From the IMG/VR virus record IMGVR_UViG_3300050821_009624, positions 1-23,359 of that record: a stretch of DNA of 23,359 bases; one strand, given 5' to 3'. Below are positions 2,230-9,879 of this stretch, in pieces (position 1 is the stretch's first letter; every line of letters starts with the position of its first letter). This DNA comes from a virus. The notes under the pieces are model-generated. The model saw only the letters and a program-made list of their open reading frames with translations, was not told the origin of the DNA and did not search any database. Made by a program: the position numbers and the translations under genes.

Positions 2230-3195
2230 TCAGGGGCCGGGGTATTTCACATCGGCGACGAGCCCGGAGCCGGCCTCGTTGCGCGAGGTCAGCGTGTACT
2301 CACCGAGTATCATCGCCTTCTCGTTGTCACCGGTCTTGGCCAGATCAGTGAGGGCGATCGGCCGCAGCCAGGCAAGACCCCACAAATCCGAGTTGATGAT
2401 CAGGGTGTCACGCTGCCGCATAAAGCGGTCAGCTTTGATTTCGACGGTGCCGAAATCGTAGACGTAGACATCAATGCTGTTGACCAGCTTCTCTTCCTCG
2501 GCATTGACGTATCGAGTGTTGTTACCTGAAAACGTGCTGATCCCCTGCTTCAGCGAGCTGTTGACGAGGACAAAATCCGGCTCGTCCCCGCTGTTGGTCC
2601 ACACCGAGGCAAGCGCGGTCTGGAGCATGGTCTCGGTAATAAGGATCGGTGTCGTGCCATCGGTGCGGGCATTGGTGCCATCACCGGCCGGGTTAGCCCC
2701 ACCAGCTTGTATATTCGCCACGTTCGTCTTGATCCACGCCAGCACCGAGGCGCACTTAGCCGGTGCGGAACCGACCGTGCCGTTTGTGCGAGCCTGGTTG
2801 GACAGCAAGATCGTCTCGATGTCGCGCTTGAGGCTCTTACCTTTCTTGGCGATCTGATAGCCCTTCTCGGACTTACGTCCGGCCTTGTCGACGGCTTCCT
2901 CGGTTCCCGAGATGACTACCGTCTTGGCGGAAATCTGCGTGTAGTTGCCAAGACGGACGGTTGGCACAACGGCGTCAAAAGACGAGATGTCGTCGCCCTG
3001 GATTTTCGCGTTGTTACCGTTGGGTGTTTCCAACGCGTCGGTTTGCCATTCATGAAGTATCGCCGTCGCCTTCTCTCTAGCGATGGCTGTCATAAACGGC
3101 GTTTCGGTCGGACTGATATTATAGATGATGTCGGATAGGTCTTCTCTCAGACCTACAGCACTGTAGGTTGTAAACGTGTTGGTGATGAGAGCCAT
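2230..3195 (-). CDS. Major capsid protein, SU10-like family
   Basis: A 321-residue protein that forms the icosahedral head shell. The N-terminus (ALITNTFTTYSAVGLREDLS, followed by a segment with SPTETPF) matches the SU10-type major capsid family (formerly DUF5309), which has an HK97-like fold. The family's usual length is around 300-350 residues, so this looks full length. Ser/Thr/Gly-rich stretches near residues 155-185 could be a surface insertion. The start is well supported: GGAG lies 6 bases before the ATG at 3195. The gene directly follows the scaffold gene (39-base gap) and is followed by a strong hairpin, the usual arrangement for a highly expressed head gene. Family assignment is by sequence pattern, without a search. 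Confidence 0.85.
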   Translation of the reverse strand: MALITNTFTTYSAVGLREDLSDIIYNISPTETPFMTAIAREKATAILHEWQTDALETPNGNNAKIQGDDISSFDAVVPTVRLGNYTQISAKTVVISGTEEAVDKAGRKSEKGYQIAKKGKSLKRDIETILLSNQARTNGTVGSAPAKCASVLAWIKTNVANIQAGGANPAGDGTNARTDGTTPILITETMLQTALASVWTNSGDEPDFVLVNSSLKQGISTFSGNNTRYVNAEEEKLVNSIDVYVYDFGTVEIKADRFMRQRDTLIINSDLWGLAWLRPIALTDLAKTGDNEKAMILGEYTLTSRNEAGSGLVADVKYPGP

Positions 3196-3233
3196 GATTA
3201 CTCCGGGAGTTCATCCCCGGCGCGAACGGTGGA

Positions 3234-4337
3234 TTAGAGGATTTCGGCGATGAGCGAACCGGCGTCGCGCACGCTGTTCGTGCGGCCGAACCGATTGACT
3301 GAGCGGGTGAGCCTGGATTGCGGCCCGCGATCATTGTCCTGGCTGGTGCCAGGAGGTCTGACCTGGGCCGGAACATTGTTCCGCTTGGTGTCTGCCGAGG
3401 CGGCAGCCGTCAGCTGCTTATCATAGAGCATCGCCTTGGTCGCCAGCACGATGAGCCGGTGATCGTAGGCGTTATCGATCTCTTCGGGACTAAACCCGCC
3501 GACATCGCGCAGAAAGATGCCGAGATCCCTGCGGATCTGGTTGCCTTTTACCGGATCGGCAAAGTCGGGCATCTTCTCGGCCAACGCCTTGTGCTCTTTA
3601 GGGAGCAATTCGGCTAGCCGCTGAGCCTGCTGCTGCTTTTGATACTCAACCAACTGTTGTTGACCGTCGCGGAACTGTTGTTCGATGATGCCGAGCCGGG
3701 ATCGCAGCGCGTCACGCATTGCCTGCAGCCGAACGGCCTCGGCAGGGTTGTTCGCTGCGAGTGTTTCCCAGTCGACGTTGTTCAACGCCTCCGCCTGGGG
3801 GGCGGCTAGGATCATCATTTTCTGCAAACCCGCCAGATATTCGGCTCTCTGGGCCACAGCCGCCTCACGCTCGCCGTCATAGGCACGGCGGGCTTCGGCG
3901 GCCTCCTGGCTGCGTTGGGTAAGCGCGGCCTCACGCTGGCTCTCTCGCCGGGCAACAGTCTGCTGCAAGGCGGGTGGGAGCTGGCTAAACGCCTGCTTTT
4001 CGTCGGTACTCCACGACGCTGGCGGTTCGATGGCAGCCGCGGGGGGCGGCTGTTCGTCTTGGCCTTTGTCATCTTCTGGCCCGGTGGGCCGGCTCTCATC
4101 GGCTCCGGGATCGGGCGGCTCCTCTCGAGGAGGCTCGCCGGATGGCTTGTCACCGGCTGGTGCCGGTGGCGTATCGTCCGCGAACAACAGACCGGCGATG
4201 GCATCGCCAGCCGAGCGCGTGTCGGTGACCGTATAGGTTTTCTCGGCGCCCTTCGCGGCGCCATTCGAAGCGGGCGCAGGCGCAGGAGGTGGGCTCGCAC
4301 CGCCGGGATCGGCGGCACCGTTCGACAGCTCAGCCAT
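3234..4337 (-). CDS. Capsid scaffolding/assembly protein
   Basis: A 367-residue protein lying directly upstream of the capsid gene, the standard scaffold position. Residues about 1-100 are disordered, rich in Pro, Ala, Glu and Asp. Residues about 110-245 are long Gln/Ala/Arg/Glu-rich helices likely to form a coiled coil, and a folded helical segment follows (around LRDVGGFSPEEIDNAYDHR). The C-terminus is basic then hydrophobic (NRFGRTNSVRDAGSLIAEIL). Scaffolds template the procapsid and leave it before packaging; this composition and order fit that role. GAGG lies 9 bases upstream of the ATG at 4337. A hairpin-bearing gap precedes it. No protease motif is visible. Confidence 0.75.
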   Translation of the reverse strand: MAELSNGAADPGGASPPPAPAPASNGAAKGAEKTYTVTDTRSAGDAIAGLLFADDTPPAPAGDKPSGEPPREEPPDPGADESRPTGPEDDKGQDEQPPPAAAIEPPASWSTDEKQAFSQLPPALQQTVARRESQREAALTQRSQEAAEARRAYDGEREAAVAQRAEYLAGLQKMMILAAPQAEALNNVDWETLAANNPAEAVRLQAMRDALRSRLGIIEQQFRDGQQQLVEYQKQQQAQRLAELLPKEHKALAEKMPDFADPVKGNQIRRDLGIFLRDVGGFSPEEIDNAYDHRLIVLATKAMLYDKQLTAAASADTKRNNVPAQVRPPGTSQDNDRGPQSRLTRSVNRFGRTNSVRDAGSLIAEIL

Positions 4338-4354
4338 GAATGAAACCTCAATCG

Positions 4355-4377
4355 AACAATCGAACCGCTCGATTGTT
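4355..4377. repeat. Perfect inverted repeat in the gap before the scaffold gene
   Basis: The gap 4338-4428 contains a perfect 9-base inverted repeat (AACAATCGA and TCGATTGTT, loop ACCGC). It lies in the 5' leader of the scaffold-capsid mRNA or just upstream of it. Beside it are AT-rich blocks (ATTAATTAAT), and on the minus strand a loose -35/-10-like pair (TTGCGC and ATTAAT, about 18 bases apart). It could be an operator, a leader hairpin or part of a late promoter. There is no U-run, so it is not a classic terminator. Confidence 0.5.
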
Positions 4378-4428
4378 AATGGAACCGGTCCGATTAATTA
4401 ATGGAGCGGCGTTATTTTTGGCGCAATT

Positions 4429-4725
4429 TTAAGCGGCGCGCTCGGCCATGCGGATGCGCGCGGCGGCGCGGTAGGCGCGCAGTTTCGCGGTGACCCGGAT
4501 CAACGCATGTGCCTCGTAATACAGCTCTTCGCGCCGTGAGGCCTGCTCGGTAACCATCCACTCGGCATAGAGGTCTTCGCGCAACTCTCGGAAAGCCTCG
4601 GCGAGGGTGGGGTCGTTGAGCAGTCGGTCTGCCGCCACACCGCGGCGGTGCACATCTCCAAGAGGTGCGGGCTCGTCATCCGGGTTGTACGGTGTTTGTT
4701 CCGGCGCGTCCACTTTTTGCGCCAT
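4429..4725 (-). CDS. Small conserved head-region protein, 98 aa
   Basis: I choose the ATG at 4725 because AAGGGG lies 5 bases upstream; a longer in-frame form could start at 4767, where TGATG overlaps the portal stop. The protein has a Pro-rich start (VDAPEQTPYNPDDEPAP) and a helical second half: LLNDPTLAEAFRELREDLYA is followed by a charged region with many Arg and Ala. The pattern 'RG..AdrLLnDP.l.eAf..lr..l...W......R' is one I associate with small proteins found between portal and scaffold in podoviruses. Its role is not known to me; location suggests head assembly or packaging. Confidence 0.7.
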   Translation of the reverse strand: MAQKVDAPEQTPYNPDDEPAPLGDVHRRGVAADRLLNDPTLAEAFRELREDLYAEWMVTEQASRREELYYEAHALIRVTAKLRAYRAAARIRMAERAA

Positions 4726-4766
4726 TACGCCCCTTTGACTTTGCCCCAGCCATCGAGGCCAGCGCA

Positions 4767-7145
4767 TCAGCCAGGGCTCTGAGCCGGCTGGTTCTGCGCC
4801 GCGAGGCTCGCCTGATGGACGGCAAGCTGGTGCGCGTTCTCGGCTTTCATCTGCTCGATCGCCATATCGTTGGCCGCGCGCAACCGCTCGATTTCGAGAT
4901 CGTTCTGAGCCTTTTGCTGCGCGAGCGCGAATTGCTGCGCCAACTTCTCGCGGTCGAGGCGCTGCTGGTGCCCGGCTTGCTGATCGGCGATCTGCATTTC
5001 CTGCGCCGCTTTTTGGCTCGACAGCTGCTGCTGATGCCCTGCCTTTTGCTCGTTGAGCTGAACGTCAGAGGCCGCCTTTTGCTGCTGTAGCTGCATCTCG
5101 GCCTGGGCCATCGCCTGCGTCGGGTCAGGCTTGGGCGGCTGCGGCGGCCCGGTTACCGAGGGCGGTGGTGGGACGGTTGGGTCGGTAACCGCGAAGTTCG
5201 ACTTGAACCCGGCGTTTTCACTGACCTTGCCGACCGTGTCGTAGATGTTCTTGGCATAAACCAAAGGGCCGCTCATGCCCTGCTGGCCCATCACGATCTG
5301 CTGCTGAATATTCAAGAGCGCCATCAAATGGCTGAGGATCTGATCGCGGTTACCGGTTCCGAGCCCGACATTGACCGTCACGGTCATGTCGTTTTTCCAC
5401 TGCGCCGGATCGGTCTGTAGCGGCGCCCCTGATACGCGGATGATGCGCTCTTGCTGCGCGTGCTTCTTGATCAGCCCGAGGATCCCGCGCACCGCCTTTT
5501 GCACGCTGAAGGCAAAGATCCGGGCGATCAGCTCGACACGCTGCGCGGCCGCCTGCTGGATCAAGTTGACGCCCGTCGCGGTCTTGTTGAGATCGTCCGG
5601 GTCGAGACCTTGATTGTGCCGCGAAATGCCGGTGCGCACCTCGGCGGTCTGGTCCATGTACTCGACCAAGCCTTGCGCCTTCTCGGCCACAAATGGAGTG
5701 ATTAGAGGCGTGACACCGTCGGCCGTTTTAGCTCGCACAATGCCGCCCGGCCTTGAGGTCAACAAATCGTCATAGGTCTCGTCGGTCGCCGCACTCTCGA
5801 CGACCAAATGTCGGGGATTGTTCGTCAAGTAGATGTTGTCGAGCATCTGGCGGATTAGAGTTGACTTGATCCGCTGAAGGTCCATAACCAAGTCTGCTAC
5901 CGCCATCCCCACCAGCTTGTGCGGCATCGGCACCGGACAGAGAAAGTTAAACGGCACCTCGTCGACTTCCTCGATATCAGGTTTTCCCTTCTTTTTCAGG
6001 ATCACCGCAGACCGGTCGACGGTGACGACTTTAAGCAACTCAGCCAACCCGTCGCCGTCATAATCGGCCTGGATGTAATTCTCTTCGACCCAGTACATCC
6101 GCATGGGCGGGTCGGTGCGGTCGTTGGTATAGGGCATGTCGTCGTCAGGCATGAACCGCTGCAGCCGCTCGGAATTGTAGTCCTCGCTATCGGTCCAGCT
6201 GATCTGGTCGAGGCAATCGGCGTCATAGCCCTGCTGCAAGAGTGCGGTGCGCGTGGTCGGTTGGCGGTGGCACAGAAACGGGATGTTCTCGCGTGTGCTG
6301 CGGCGCGAAAAGAGGATTTCCTCGGGCGGCACGTTCGCTATCTTGATGCGGCCCTGCTTGCGCGTCACCCGCAGCTTGCAATCATAAAGCATCGGTGGCG
6401 GCTGTGGCGGCATCCCCGGCATTTGCGGTGGCACCGGCTGCGGCGCGTCCTCGCCCATCCCCGAAGACGTCGGCGCCGGATAGGAACGCTCTTCGAGGAT
6501 CTCGACTTCAGCGCTCGAATTGGGATCAGAGAGGTCGCGGATCTTGGCGTTATATTCGTCGGCAGTGAGCCCGGTGAAACTGTTGGTTTCCCTTATTTGC
6601 TCTTCGGACCACCAGCGCTTGATCCAGCCGAGCTTTTGCAGCAATCCGTCTTTAAACCAGTCATGGAGTATAAGGAAGCCATCGTTGTCTATATTGAAAA
6701 CTTGATTGATATACAACGTGGCCTGGCGCCCGGCCTCCTCGGGGTCGAGCGGCGGCGGCATCCCCGGAGCGGTTGGCGGTGGGGTCATCGTCGTGCGGAT
6801 GGGTGCCAACTCCGCGATGGTGTCCGACGCGGTAAAGATGCGCAGCAGCGCCGGTAATACCCACTCGACTGTTTCCAGCACGGTCAGCATCACCACTTTA
6901 GAACGGTTCTGGCCTGGTGGTGGGTCAGCGAATTCGGCCCCCTGATAGGCCTCCATCAACGATTGGCGCTCGTTCGACAGCTTGCCGTTTTCGGCACCAA
7001 TCGCCTGGTTCAACTCGCGCCGGATGATGTCCTGCAGCTCGTCAACCGGCATCAGGTCTTTTGGATCGCGCCGACGGGCGCGCGGCCTCACATCGCCAGC
7101 TGGATCCCGCAAGCTAGGAAACAGGGCAACGTTATCGAGTGGCAT
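4767..7145 (-). CDS. Portal protein, large P22-like
   Basis: At 792 residues this is the size expected of a P22-type portal, the dodecameric ring at the head vertex through which DNA enters and leaves. The N-terminal part has the helical clip/stem region (SLMEAYQGAEFADPPPGQNR, then VLETVEWVLPALLRIF). The core carries portal-like segments such as PFNFLCPVPMPHKLVGMAVA and the conserved stretch around GLDPDDLNKTATGVNLIQQA. Residues about 686-784 are nine consecutive 11-residue helical repeats, matching the long C-terminal barrel helix known in P22. The ATG at 7145 follows AGGA by 3 bases and overlaps the coiled-coil gene. Large terminase lies upstream and scaffold and capsid downstream, all on one strand. 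Confidence 0.88.
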   Translation of the reverse strand: MPLDNVALFPSLRDPAGDVRPRARRRDPKDLMPVDELQDIIRRELNQAIGAENGKLSNERQSLMEAYQGAEFADPPPGQNRSKVVMLTVLETVEWVLPALLRIFTASDTIAELAPIRTTMTPPPTAPGMPPPLDPEEAGRQATLYINQVFNIDNDGFLILHDWFKDGLLQKLGWIKRWWSEEQIRETNSFTGLTADEYNAKIRDLSDPNSSAEVEILEERSYPAPTSSGMGEDAPQPVPPQMPGMPPQPPPMLYDCKLRVTRKQGRIKIANVPPEEILFSRRSTRENIPFLCHRQPTTRTALLQQGYDADCLDQISWTDSEDYNSERLQRFMPDDDMPYTNDRTDPPMRMYWVEENYIQADYDGDGLAELLKVVTVDRSAVILKKKGKPDIEEVDEVPFNFLCPVPMPHKLVGMAVADLVMDLQRIKSTLIRQMLDNIYLTNNPRHLVVESAATDETYDDLLTSRPGGIVRAKTADGVTPLITPFVAEKAQGLVEYMDQTAEVRTGISRHNQGLDPDDLNKTATGVNLIQQAAAQRVELIARIFAFSVQKAVRGILGLIKKHAQQERIIRVSGAPLQTDPAQWKNDMTVTVNVGLGTGNRDQILSHLMALLNIQQQIVMGQQGMSGPLVYAKNIYDTVGKVSENAGFKSNFAVTDPTVPPPPSVTGPPQPPKPDPTQAMAQAEMQLQQQKAASDVQLNEQKAGHQQQLSSQKAAQEMQIADQQAGHQQRLDREKLAQQFALAQQKAQNDLEIERLRAANDMAIEQMKAENAHQLAVHQASLAAQNQPAQSPG
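4794..5090 (-). repeat. Nine tandem 33-base units encoding 11-residue repeats in the portal C-terminus
   Basis: Translating the portal C-terminus gives nine back-to-back units of exactly 11 residues, each beginning with Leu or Ile, for example LQQQKAASDVQ, LNEQKAGHQQQ, LSSQKAAQEMQ, IADQQAGHQQR and IEQMKAENAHQ. Hendecad periodicity favours straight or slightly right-handed helical bundles. The units are Gln-rich and have diverged, so this is an old tandem expansion rather than recent slippage. Confidence 0.85.
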
Positions 7146-7731: not shown

Positions 7732-9879
7732 TTAAACCACGGCAAGATCAGGGTATTTCAACGGTTTGGTGCTGCCGGCATTGCGCACATTGGCGAGCGC
7801 CCAGTATCTGAGCGCGTCGGAATTATGCACAACAGCGCCATTCTCCAGCGAAAAGCAGTGTCCATCAGGAACCGTAAGGTCCCAAACGTCACTCCGCTCC
7901 GAGAGCTTTTTGACGCTTGCGATACGCAATGGCCTTGCAGGGCGAGCAGCAATAAAGATGCTGCCTGCCGTTTGCCCGAACCAGCGCAGAAAATTCCTTA
8001 CTGCACTCCAGGCACCGACGGGCTTCACGCTTCCATTTAGTCCAGGTTTGCGACTGTTTTGCCTGCCTGCTATGCCATAATCTCCCTTCAGGAGAAGCAT
8101 GCCATTCGGCCGCCCTTTGCCGGGCCAGAGGGCCGATTTCGCGGGAAACGCGAGCCCTGGCCTTTTTGAGATGATCGGTGGCAGGAAGGCATTCGAGGTT
8201 CGCCAATCGAGCGTCGTGAACGTTCCCGTCCCGGTGGTGAATGTGACAACCGGGGGGAACAGGACCGAAGGCGGCTTTCCAAACATCGCGATGAAGTTTG
8301 CGGCCACCGCGCGTCGGATACTTTTCGCTAGGCCAGACGCGATACAGTCCGCCATCGAAAAATATGGTGAGGTCGTCAAGGTAGACAGGATCGCTGAACC
8401 CGGCTGCAGGGACCGCGCGGATGTCCACCCGTTCTCCGTCAGAAATAAATGATCCGGCGTGCATTTCACCGTAAGCCCGTCGGTGAACGCCACCGCCACA
8501 AGTGGGGCATCCCGCTTCGTCAGCCTCGGGTTTGTATACTGCTTCCAACCGCATGGCGTTAGAACCTCTCCACTGCAAGGAAGGTCCTTTATCTGACGCG
8601 TTCCGTGACGCGTCAACACCATCGTCTCACCGTGAAAACACGCGTGACTCGACCAATCATGAAGCGGCCGGTCCGAGTAGGTCCGCAGGCTCTCATTCCA
8701 GCTACGCCGGTAGTTCTGCAGCGCCGAAATCCCGCGCGCGCACTTTTCGGCGTCGAACCAGCAGCGCGGTAGCAGCATCCGGGCCGCATTGATGCCGTCC
8801 TCGATCTTTTGCGACGCGATCACCGTTACGCGGTGAAACCCGAGCGAGCGCAACACCTCAAGCCGCGAACGACCGGTCCCGAGCTCGCGTGCCTCGGCGT
8901 CGTGCGGCAGGACATGCTCGCCCCATTTGTAAGGCCGCCGGTCGAGCTCGCGGGTGTACCAGTCGAGCCCGACACCGCTATTCTCTATATAATCTATAAA
9001 GCGGATCTCTTGCCCGGCGAGCTGAATGAGCCAAATCGCCGTCGCGTCGCCGATGCCGAGATCCCAGGCGGTGTGCACCGGCAGGACCGGATCGTGCAGC
9101 ACCCGGCCGATACGCTTTTCCTTTTCCGCCGCTTCCATCTGGCTGCCGTAGTAGGAACCCATGACGCCAGCGTCAAAGCTGACCAGATACTCTTGCCGAT
9201 AGCGCGCCTCGCCATCGTCCGGGCCATACTCGCGCAGCAGTTCGCGGTGCTCGACCTCGAGCTGCTCATACGTGAAAACATCGGTCTCGGTCGCGGGCAA
9301 CTGCTCGGCAAACCACGTGTCGTCCTGGTTCGCCGCCTCAAAAAACGTCGAGGCGTGGTTGCGGCCGCGCGGGGTCGTTATAAAGAGTGCCCAACCGCCA
9401 TTTTCCGCCAGGATCGGCCGCAAGTAGCCCCATGCGCTCGGATCGGCGAGCGCAAACTCGCTAAAGACGACGCCAATTGGCGGGCTGCCGACCAAGCTGT
9501 TGTAGTTATCCGAGCCGACCAGCTGCCACAGGGACCCACACTTGAACCGGATCGCCATATCGGTCTCGCGCGTCGACTCACGAAGCTCGCGCGGAAACGC
9601 CTCGTTTATCCGCCGCAGCCCGGTGTGCGGGTTGACCGCGTCCCACACCGCCTTCCTCGCCTGGTTGGCCTCGGGCAACATATGCCAATAAACCCCGACG
9701 CGGGTGTGAGCGGCGACCGCCGACCAGTGCAGGCAGACTTCGTCTTTTCCGGCCCGCCGATGCCAGATCGCAACCGCCCGCTTGCCGCCGTTTTCAAGGT
9801 ATCTGTATAGTTTCAGCTGATAGGGCCGCGGGCGCCAGTTGTTGTGCGGCAGACGGATCAGACCGTCGTCGAGCGGCAT
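7732..9879 (-). CDS. terL: Terminase large subunit precursor interrupted by an intein
   Basis: The 715-residue precursor contains a complete packaging motor/nuclease of about 442 residues after removal of a 273-residue intein. ATPase motifs: Walker A HRRAGKD (residues 40-46), a Walker B-like GVVFSE ending in Glu141, and the coupling motif FITTPRG (about 166-172). Nuclease motifs: AWDLGIGD (Asp273, Asp278), the LPHDA motif (Asp327), and SDALRY with Asp688 just after the intein. Cys414 to Asn686 is the intein, inserted inside the last nuclease motif (SSHA then SDALRY), so unspliced protein should lack a proper active site. The ATG at 9879 starts 3 bases after the stop of a tiny membrane-peptide gene and has no obvious ribosome site, suggesting coupling. 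The portal is downstream; the probable small subunit lies about 7.3 kb away. Confidence 0.92.
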   Translation of the reverse strand: MPLDDGLIRLPHNNWRPRPYQLKLYRYLENGGKRAVAIWHRRAGKDEVCLHWSAVAAHTRVGVYWHMLPEANQARKAVWDAVNPHTGLRRINEAFPRELRESTRETDMAIRFKCGSLWQLVGSDNYNSLVGSPPIGVVFSEFALADPSAWGYLRPILAENGGWALFITTPRGRNHASTFFEAANQDDTWFAEQLPATETDVFTYEQLEVEHRELLREYGPDDGEARYRQEYLVSFDAGVMGSYYGSQMEAAEKEKRIGRVLHDPVLPVHTAWDLGIGDATAIWLIQLAGQEIRFIDYIENSGVGLDWYTRELDRRPYKWGEHVLPHDAEARELGTGRSRLEVLRSLGFHRVTVIASQKIEDGINAARMLLPRCWFDAEKCARGISALQNYRRSWNESLRTYSDRPLHDWSSHACFHGETMVLTRHGTRQIKDLPCSGEVLTPCGWKQYTNPRLTKRDAPLVAVAFTDGLTVKCTPDHLFLTENGWTSARSLQPGSAILSTLTTSPYFSMADCIASGLAKSIRRAVAANFIAMFGKPPSVLFPPVVTFTTGTGTFTTLDWRTSNAFLPPIISKRPGLAFPAKSALWPGKGRPNGMLLLKGDYGIAGRQNSRKPGLNGSVKPVGAWSAVRNFLRWFGQTAGSIFIAARPARPLRIASVKKLSERSDVWDLTVPDGHCFSLENGAVVHNSDALRYWALANVRNAGSTKPLKYPDLAVV
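7889..8554 (-). CDS. HNH homing endonuclease nested out of frame inside the intein
   Basis: A 221-residue protein lies entirely inside the intein DNA, in the -1 frame relative to the terminase. It has a CPTC knuckle at residues 16-19, then an HNH core: RKLHRDVWKAAFGPVPPGCH leads into IHHRDGN (His106/His107), LANLE (Asn119) and DHLKKA (His128), matching the HNH_3-type pattern. A C-terminal zinc ribbon has Cys181/Cys184 and Cys202/203/Cys206. All expected catalytic positions are present, so it looks functional. The start is either ATG at 8554 (GAGG 10 bases upstream) or TTG at 8578 (AAAGGA 6 bases upstream). By analogy with homing endonucleases it would cut intein-less terminase genes and spread the intein; this is inferred. 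The frame is open upstream only to 8626, so an extended form starting before the intein is excluded. Confidence 0.85.
   Translation of the reverse strand: MRLEAVYKPEADEAGCPTCGGGVHRRAYGEMHAGSFISDGERVDIRAVPAAGFSDPVYLDDLTIFFDGGLYRVWPSEKYPTRGGRKLHRDVWKAAFGPVPPGCHIHHRDGNVHDARLANLECLPATDHLKKARARVSREIGPLARQRAAEWHASPEGRLWHSRQAKQSQTWTKWKREARRCLECSKEFSALVRANGRQHLYCCSPCKAIAYRKRQKALGAE
8595..8614. repeat. Hairpin just upstream of the nested HNH gene's ribosome site
   Basis: On the minus strand GACGCGT and ACGCGTC form a perfect 7-base stem with a 6-base loop. The hairpin ends 4 bases before AAAGGA (8585-8590), the ribosome site for the TTG start at 8578. It lies inside the coding sequence of the intein's N-terminal block. 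Hairpins near the ribosome site control some phage homing endonuclease genes; a role here is inference. Confidence 0.45.

Follow-up and report, generated by a model that had tools for sequence, protein, structure and literature searches.

A terminase intein with an overlapping, out-of-frame HNH endonuclease gene that extends across Hint block B

We are highly confident that an intein in the terminase large subunit (TerL) gene of this virus carries a homing endonuclease as an overlapping, out-of-frame gene and that the N-terminal extension of this endonuclease was overprinted on Hint block B. The window, i.e., the whole 23,359-base stretch analyzed here, comprises positions 1 to 23,359 of IMG/VR virus record IMGVR_UViG_3300050821_009624. 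Portal and major capsid proteins at 2233-7145 match SU10-like Pfam families, and judging by these matches, the contig is predicted to derive from an SU10-like tailed phage. The features of the TerL locus are as follows.

9879..7732 (-): TerL gene, 715 aa; the extein junction is directly visible
8640..7822 (-): intein, 273 aa, C1...HN followed by Ser+1; Pfam Intein_splicing, TIGR01445/TIGR01443
8365..8640 (-): Hint N part, intein codons 1-92; AF2 pLDDT 87-98 over residues 1-90
8587..8616 (-): promoter-like element, TTGACG (8616-8611), 17 nt, GATAAA (8593-8588); intein nt 25-54, with conserved third positions of codons 9-18
8563..8571 (-): Shine-Dalgarno-like GGAGAGGTT upstream of the HNH start; similar in homologues, lost in L242
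8554..7889 (-): HNH_3 protein (Pfam HNH_3), 221 aa from the conserved ATG at 8554
8384..8554 (-): HNH N-terminal extension, codons 1-57, over Hint N including block B; missing in outgroup nested HNHs, supported by a cross-validated PSSM
8509-8498 (-): CPTC, HNH codons 16-19; Cys pair conserved, with codon evidence
8470-8447 (-): GEMHAGSF in the HNH frame, sharing its bases with intein VKCTPDHLF
8469-8425 (-): Hint block B, VKCTPDHLFLTENGW, intein codons 58-72, with invariant T61 and H64
8141..8395 (-): HNH catalytic core, residues 54-138; I-HmuI (1u3e), VIA Z 6.5 over 77 residues
7936..8364 (-): dual-coded linker of the intein, codons 93-235; one frame encodes the HNH, while the intein frame is predicted to be disordered
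7904..8029 (-): C-terminal zinc-ribbon-like region, HNH residues 176-217, CLEC...CCSPC; Zn_ribbon_8 below cutoff, weak Z 3.8
7822..7929 (-): Hint C part, last 36 codons; pLDDT 92-98, its start overlapping the last HNH codons

The TerL frame is continuous in the window, without stops, and the host gene is not broken into two ORFs. The intein is inserted in the C-terminal nuclease-domain motif of TerL (HDWSSHA^SDALRYW) and shows the landmarks C1, TPDH at residues 61 to 64, and VHN^S. It scored 35.7 bits against Pfam Intein_splicing (gathering threshold, 35.8), with additional matches to both TIGRFAM models, while the nested protein scored 48.8 bits against HNH_3 (gathering threshold, 24.8). HNH codon positions 1, 2, and 3 correspond to intein positions 3, 1, and 2. 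A preliminary description of this DNA had proposed overprinting at 8400-8554 (HNH codons 1-51), where block B and the N terminus of the HNH protein would use the same bases. The HNH frame is indeed open there and shares bases with block B; this overlap is real but is not confined to block B, as the entire HNH ORF is nested inside the intein on the same strand and in another frame.

A first scan recovered nine virus contigs with the same arrangement, and further scans brought the collection to 103 distinct inteins of the clade with an HNH core, all from environmental virus contigs; every homologue in the clade is uncultivated. Scans of cultured phages and of a collection of bacterial and archaeal genomes returned only distant relatives and no clade member with both the intein and the HNH. 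Codon and recoding statistics were computed on 71 non-redundant homologues (<90% nucleotide identity). The intein frame was stop-free in 103/103 inteins, and the HNH lay in the same relative frame in every one. The count of open HNH frames ("HNH_open") was 94/103, a figure that includes cases in which the profile overran a natural stop and others with a stop just ahead of an alternative start (e.g., L067, L244, and L249). Among the 71 homologues both coding frames were open, with the exception of L067, which has one stop in the HNH frame beside an alternative start, and the third frame held a mean of 19.7 stops per intein. The dual open frame is not due to chance.

Both proteins retain their diagnostic residues. 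C1 was invariant in 69 aligned inteins, as were T61 and H64 of the block B TxxH motif; the C-terminal HN was kept in nearly all of the 71, and the +1 residue was Cys in 47 and Ser in 24. In the HNH protein, which ended 40 to 106 nt ahead of the intein end, H88, H106, H107, and N119 were invariant in 68 sequences and by analogy would be the catalytic His and Asn residues. The C-x-x-C pair of the extension was present in 101 of the 103 distinct inteins. The preliminary description had called this segment a zinc knuckle and had held that loss of CPTC from relatives keeping the HNH core would refute overprinting. Such loss was found in only two inteins (L152 and L248), and the pair is therefore not absolutely required. 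Both of these inteins also carry GEVYAG in place of GEM[HY]AG. As for the name zinc knuckle, metal binding is an inference and zinc is unproven: there is only one Cys pair, in a region whose predicted structure is of low confidence.

In the predicted intein model, pLDDT was mostly above 90 in the Hint parts (residues 1 to 90 and about 240 to 273) and mostly 30 to 40 in the linker, and the predicted Hint fold matched solved inteins, the best being the gp41-1 intein (E = 2.6e-6). The HNH model had a mean pLDDT of 86. I-HmuI is an HNH homing endonuclease encoded in a group I intron. Its fold (PDB 1u3e) is shared with residues 54 to 138, and the N-terminal extension lies outside the matched region. 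Within the HNH model, confidence was lowest in the extension (block means of 47 to 73 over residues 1 to 40), where a beta hairpin was predicted at residues 31 to 47, and fold searches with the model identified no fold for residues 1 to 53. A PDB match of the CPTC region to the RNF4 RING (E = 0.012) was treated as chance.

We examined the signals from which the HNH protein might be expressed. The start at 8554 was ATG in 68 of 71 homologues and GTG in one; few homologues lack an equivalent start, and most of those have another ATG closely upstream of the Cys pair. The promoter-like element takes a sigma70-like form in homologues, TTGAC[G/A]-N17-GATAAT, and is also found in basal members with a slightly later ATG. 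Within it, third positions of intein codons 9 to 18 averaged 10.9 changes per site, compared to 31.3 and 24.7 in the flanks, and codon choice was narrow (ATA for Ile17 in 56/62 and CGT for Arg11 in 59/61). The sigma70-like score was 9.44 of 12 for the real sequences, compared to 7.55 ± 0.10 after recoding. Scanning the window itself for consensus promoters gave no match because its −10 hexamer is GATAAA, and the case for a promoter thus rests on the homologues.

Expression from this promoter is inferred, and we cannot rule out, although we think it rather unlikely, that TTGAC-N17-GATAAT is some other DNA-level signal, such as an operator or protein-binding site. The spacer (CGT-N-ACGGAA) is conserved as strongly as the hexamers, which is more than a promoter alone requires or explains. 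However, hexamers at a 17-nt spacing followed by a Shine-Dalgarno sequence and a start codon form a standard expression cassette. Moreover, the element does not resemble the homing site: a role as a mimic of that site (an I-TevI-like autorepressor operator) was not supported by the length of the longest shared word, which averaged 5.36 with its own site and 5.35 with others. In the window, the element contains a perfect inverted repeat, TGACGCGT-CACGGA-ACGCGTCA, which is not kept in relatives. An RNA hairpin or palindromic operator was rejected, with the 8-bp repeat unconserved and C29-G44 pairing in only 42/71. The HNH promoter and another signal could both be present, and the question concerns the expression step only.

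Over block B, the bases that matter to the HNH frame alone are held fixed. HNH Cys19 requires that intein Leu47 be encoded by CTT, which it was in 68/69 sequences, compared to 16% of Leu codons in the exteins, and Cys16 requires that intein codon 44 end in T, as it did in 70/71. It is important to note that P values from such codon counts ignore relatedness, while Fitch counts on the tree do not. By the latter, Leu47 underwent 1 synonymous change (Leu20, 35; Leu27, 34; Leu78, 34), Asn44 underwent 0 (Asn37, 14), and Thr61, Pro62, and Asp63 of block B underwent 0 each (Thr6, 33; Pro21, 29; Asp5, 13). When the intein was recoded synonymously across the overlap, the HNH frame acquired 2.1 stops per sequence and both Cys residues survived in only 5.5%. 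The cross-validated PSSM score of the HNH extension fell from 159.8 bits to 18.6 bits after this intein-preserving recoding, and 0/1,380 recodings reached the lowest real score. Conversely, the intein score fell from 187.4 bits to 13.7 bits after HNH-preserving recoding. Diversity at HNH third positions, which are intein second positions, was only 0.20 in block B, compared to 0.61 in the core, and thus over block B the intein constrains the HNH too. Both readings over block B are under purifying selection, as the preliminary description had supposed from one sequence.

That description had left room for a later HNH start, with this part dispensable. The HNH would then begin after block B, and the upstream CPTC/GEMHAG frame would be a by-product of a conserved intein motif. 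We give this very little weight and regard it as largely refuted. It is true that outgroup nested HNHs begin after block B, that the I-HmuI-like core begins near residue 54, and that GEMHAG is largely forced by intein KCTPDH, which leaves the intein third codon positions as the diagnostic sites. Yet those positions are frozen at codons 44, 47, and 61 to 63, and the extension is destroyed by recoding that preserves the intein. Further, the Cys pair is almost always kept, and the Shine-Dalgarno sequence and the ATG at 8554 are conserved and have decayed in L242.

In the center of the intein the balance of constraint differed. No stops were found there in 71/71 homologues, and synonymous recoding that preserved the HNH gave 1.9 intein stops per sequence; here it is the HNH frame that prevails, and all that is required of the intein frame is to remain open. 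We find it hardly credible that this open frame is incidental, with a split intein and a separate HNH gene or with removal at the RNA level as in group I introns, for although fractured TerL-IntN/HNH/IntC-TerL loci with related HNHs exist (L166, L167, and L171), the clade's intein frames are open and contiguous throughout, the center lacks the stops expected, the Hint blocks, HN, and Cys/Ser+1 are conserved, and the window has no Rfam match at the gathering threshold.

Two relatives, L235 and L242, have lost the HNH core by deletion and are mini-inteins of ∼128 to 130 aa; in a search for further HNH-less clade relatives, only these two (L235 = L257; L242 = L256) matched across the whole mini-intein. 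In L242, we observed decay in the overlap: the start is now ATA, the Shine-Dalgarno sequence is disrupted, and Cys19 is replaced by Tyr, a change that arises through intein Val48Met at a site that is otherwise V in 70/71. L235 still has the start, the Shine-Dalgarno sequence, and the Cys pair, presumably owing to a recent deletion. The Hint domain can do without both the linker and the HNH, and features in the HNH frame can decay after loss of the HNH.

Out-of-frame nested HNHs were also found in TerL inteins with very different Hint domains: L163 (gammaproteobacterial MAG), L164 (Frankia), L165 (Selenomonadaceae MAG), L169 (Tetrasphaera phage TJE1), L170 (Rhodobacteraceae phage), L175 (Acinetobacter phage Highwayman), L177 (faecal phage), and L181/L182, the Hint of which resembles that of mini-intein L176. 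In all of these, the HNH starts after block B and has no CPTC extension, and free-standing HNHs beside TerL (L172, L173, and L179) match only from about profile position 53. Because Hint block B is common to all inteins and the outgroup HNHs lack the extension, sequence comparison indicates that the extension is most likely the newer reading, gained by overprinting through an upstream shift of the start. The preliminary description had put forward the same origin for the HNH N terminus, and the conserved start and Shine-Dalgarno sequence, together with the distant nested HNHs without an extension, bear it out. The polarity of gain versus loss is nevertheless inferred; it rests on absence in outgroups and not on a reconstructed or dated tree.

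The relatives differ in other respects. Those annotated among L163, L164, L165, L169, L170, L175, L177, and L181 are published simply as large terminase. In the Yuavirus-type phages L172, L173, and L179, a free-standing HNH gene from this family immediately follows a TerL gene that has no intein, while L166, L167, and L171 have the fractured order of TerL-IntN ORF, HNH ORF, and IntC-TerL ORF. In Brochothrix phage BL3 (L178, 2196-2604), only a C-terminal HNH zinc-finger remnant lies between the TerL-IntN and IntC-TerL ORFs, which looks like a split intein with an eroded endonuclease. Most outgroup HNHs, nested or free-standing, have two C-terminal CxxC...CxxxC fingers. HNHs of the window clade have a single finger and, in addition, the new Cys pair at the N terminus; they may have lost a finger from one end and acquired a Cys pair at the opposite end.

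The inteins occupied four neighboring positions in the nuclease motif HDWSSHADA, with 25, 7, 21, and 17 cases. The insertion points seen across the 71 loci, HDW^, HDWA^, HDWSSH^, and HDWSSHG/A^, fall within four codons, and the next residue was always Cys or Ser. Locus pairs with extein identity near 0.21 had intein identity of up to 0.74. Low extein and high intein identity at neighboring insertion points are as expected of a mobile element. Splicing, cleavage, and homing are inferred, and we propose that they proceed as follows. Translation of TerL would yield a precursor from which HintN and HintC splice themselves out, joined by a disordered linker that needs only an open frame. Initiation at the internal ATG (8554) would produce the HNH_3 endonuclease from the same DNA, its transcript probably beginning at the promoter-like element just upstream. 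The endonuclease would then cut intein-less TerL genes, and repair would copy the intein in. In the window clade, the HNH start would have moved ∼57 codons upstream, adding a segment with the C-x-x-C and the predicted beta hairpin over block B.

Dassa et al. in 2009 reportedly described "fractured genes," in which split inteins have a free-standing endonuclease gene between their halves. Related HNHs lie between TerL-IntN and IntC-TerL in Lactobacillus phage CL2, L166, and L167, while in the window clade TerL and the intein form one continuous frame. In the general case (PMC6801210 and PMC8966425), inteins with a nested homing endonuclease carry it in frame, flanked by the N and C parts of Hint. 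The window clade shares this position, but its HNH is in another frame in all 103 inteins and is a separate polypeptide. Mycobacteriophage TerL inteins, some of which splice efficiently and have an active endonuclease (Kelley et al. 2016, PMC5050341), are located in the ATPase domain, whereas those of the window clade are in the C-terminal nuclease motif and encode their endonuclease in another frame.

Among published cases, ShiLan (2025, PMC11855218) comes closest: there, too, an insertion encodes an HNH in an alternate frame, the host-gene frame stays open, and there is evidence of mobility. The ShiLan insertion has no Hint domain, is thought not to splice, and has no ribosome-binding site that could be found, and its HNH is not written over a catalytic motif. 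In contrast, the carrier in the window is an intein with conserved blocks, and its HNH has a Shine-Dalgarno sequence and a promoter-like element and shares the bases of its N terminus with block B. In the open-access literature searched, we came across no account of an intein overprinted by an endonuclease, although subscription papers could hold one; overprinting and inteins occurred together in only one unrelated paper there, and the other intein papers concerned in-frame endonucleases or split inteins. We lean slightly toward the view that these loci represent a widespread, undescribed class of dual-frame inteins, in which the endonuclease has its own promoter, ribosome-binding site, and start, one clade has an extension over the splicing-essential block B, and the same nesting is seen again in unrelated TerL inteins from phages or prophages of actinobacteria, firmicutes, and gammaproteobacteria.

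If this is true, the overlap could slow the decay of a selfish endonuclease because an essential gene's splicing domain is affected by some of the mutations that kill the HNH. Independently of this reading, the clade is a clean and well-sampled example of overprinting: the catalytic role of the older frame, Hint block B, is known, outgroups lack the newer frame, and a relative without the HNH core has decayed in the overlap. How a protein segment is born by overprinting can therefore be tested directly. The finding bears on how out-of-frame "hidden" HNH endonucleases are translated, a question left open by the ShiLan paper; in the window clade, the intein itself contains a conserved Shine-Dalgarno sequence and a promoter-like element. 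Finally, intein searches that consider only in-frame endonucleases would call such elements endonuclease-free inteins with long linkers.
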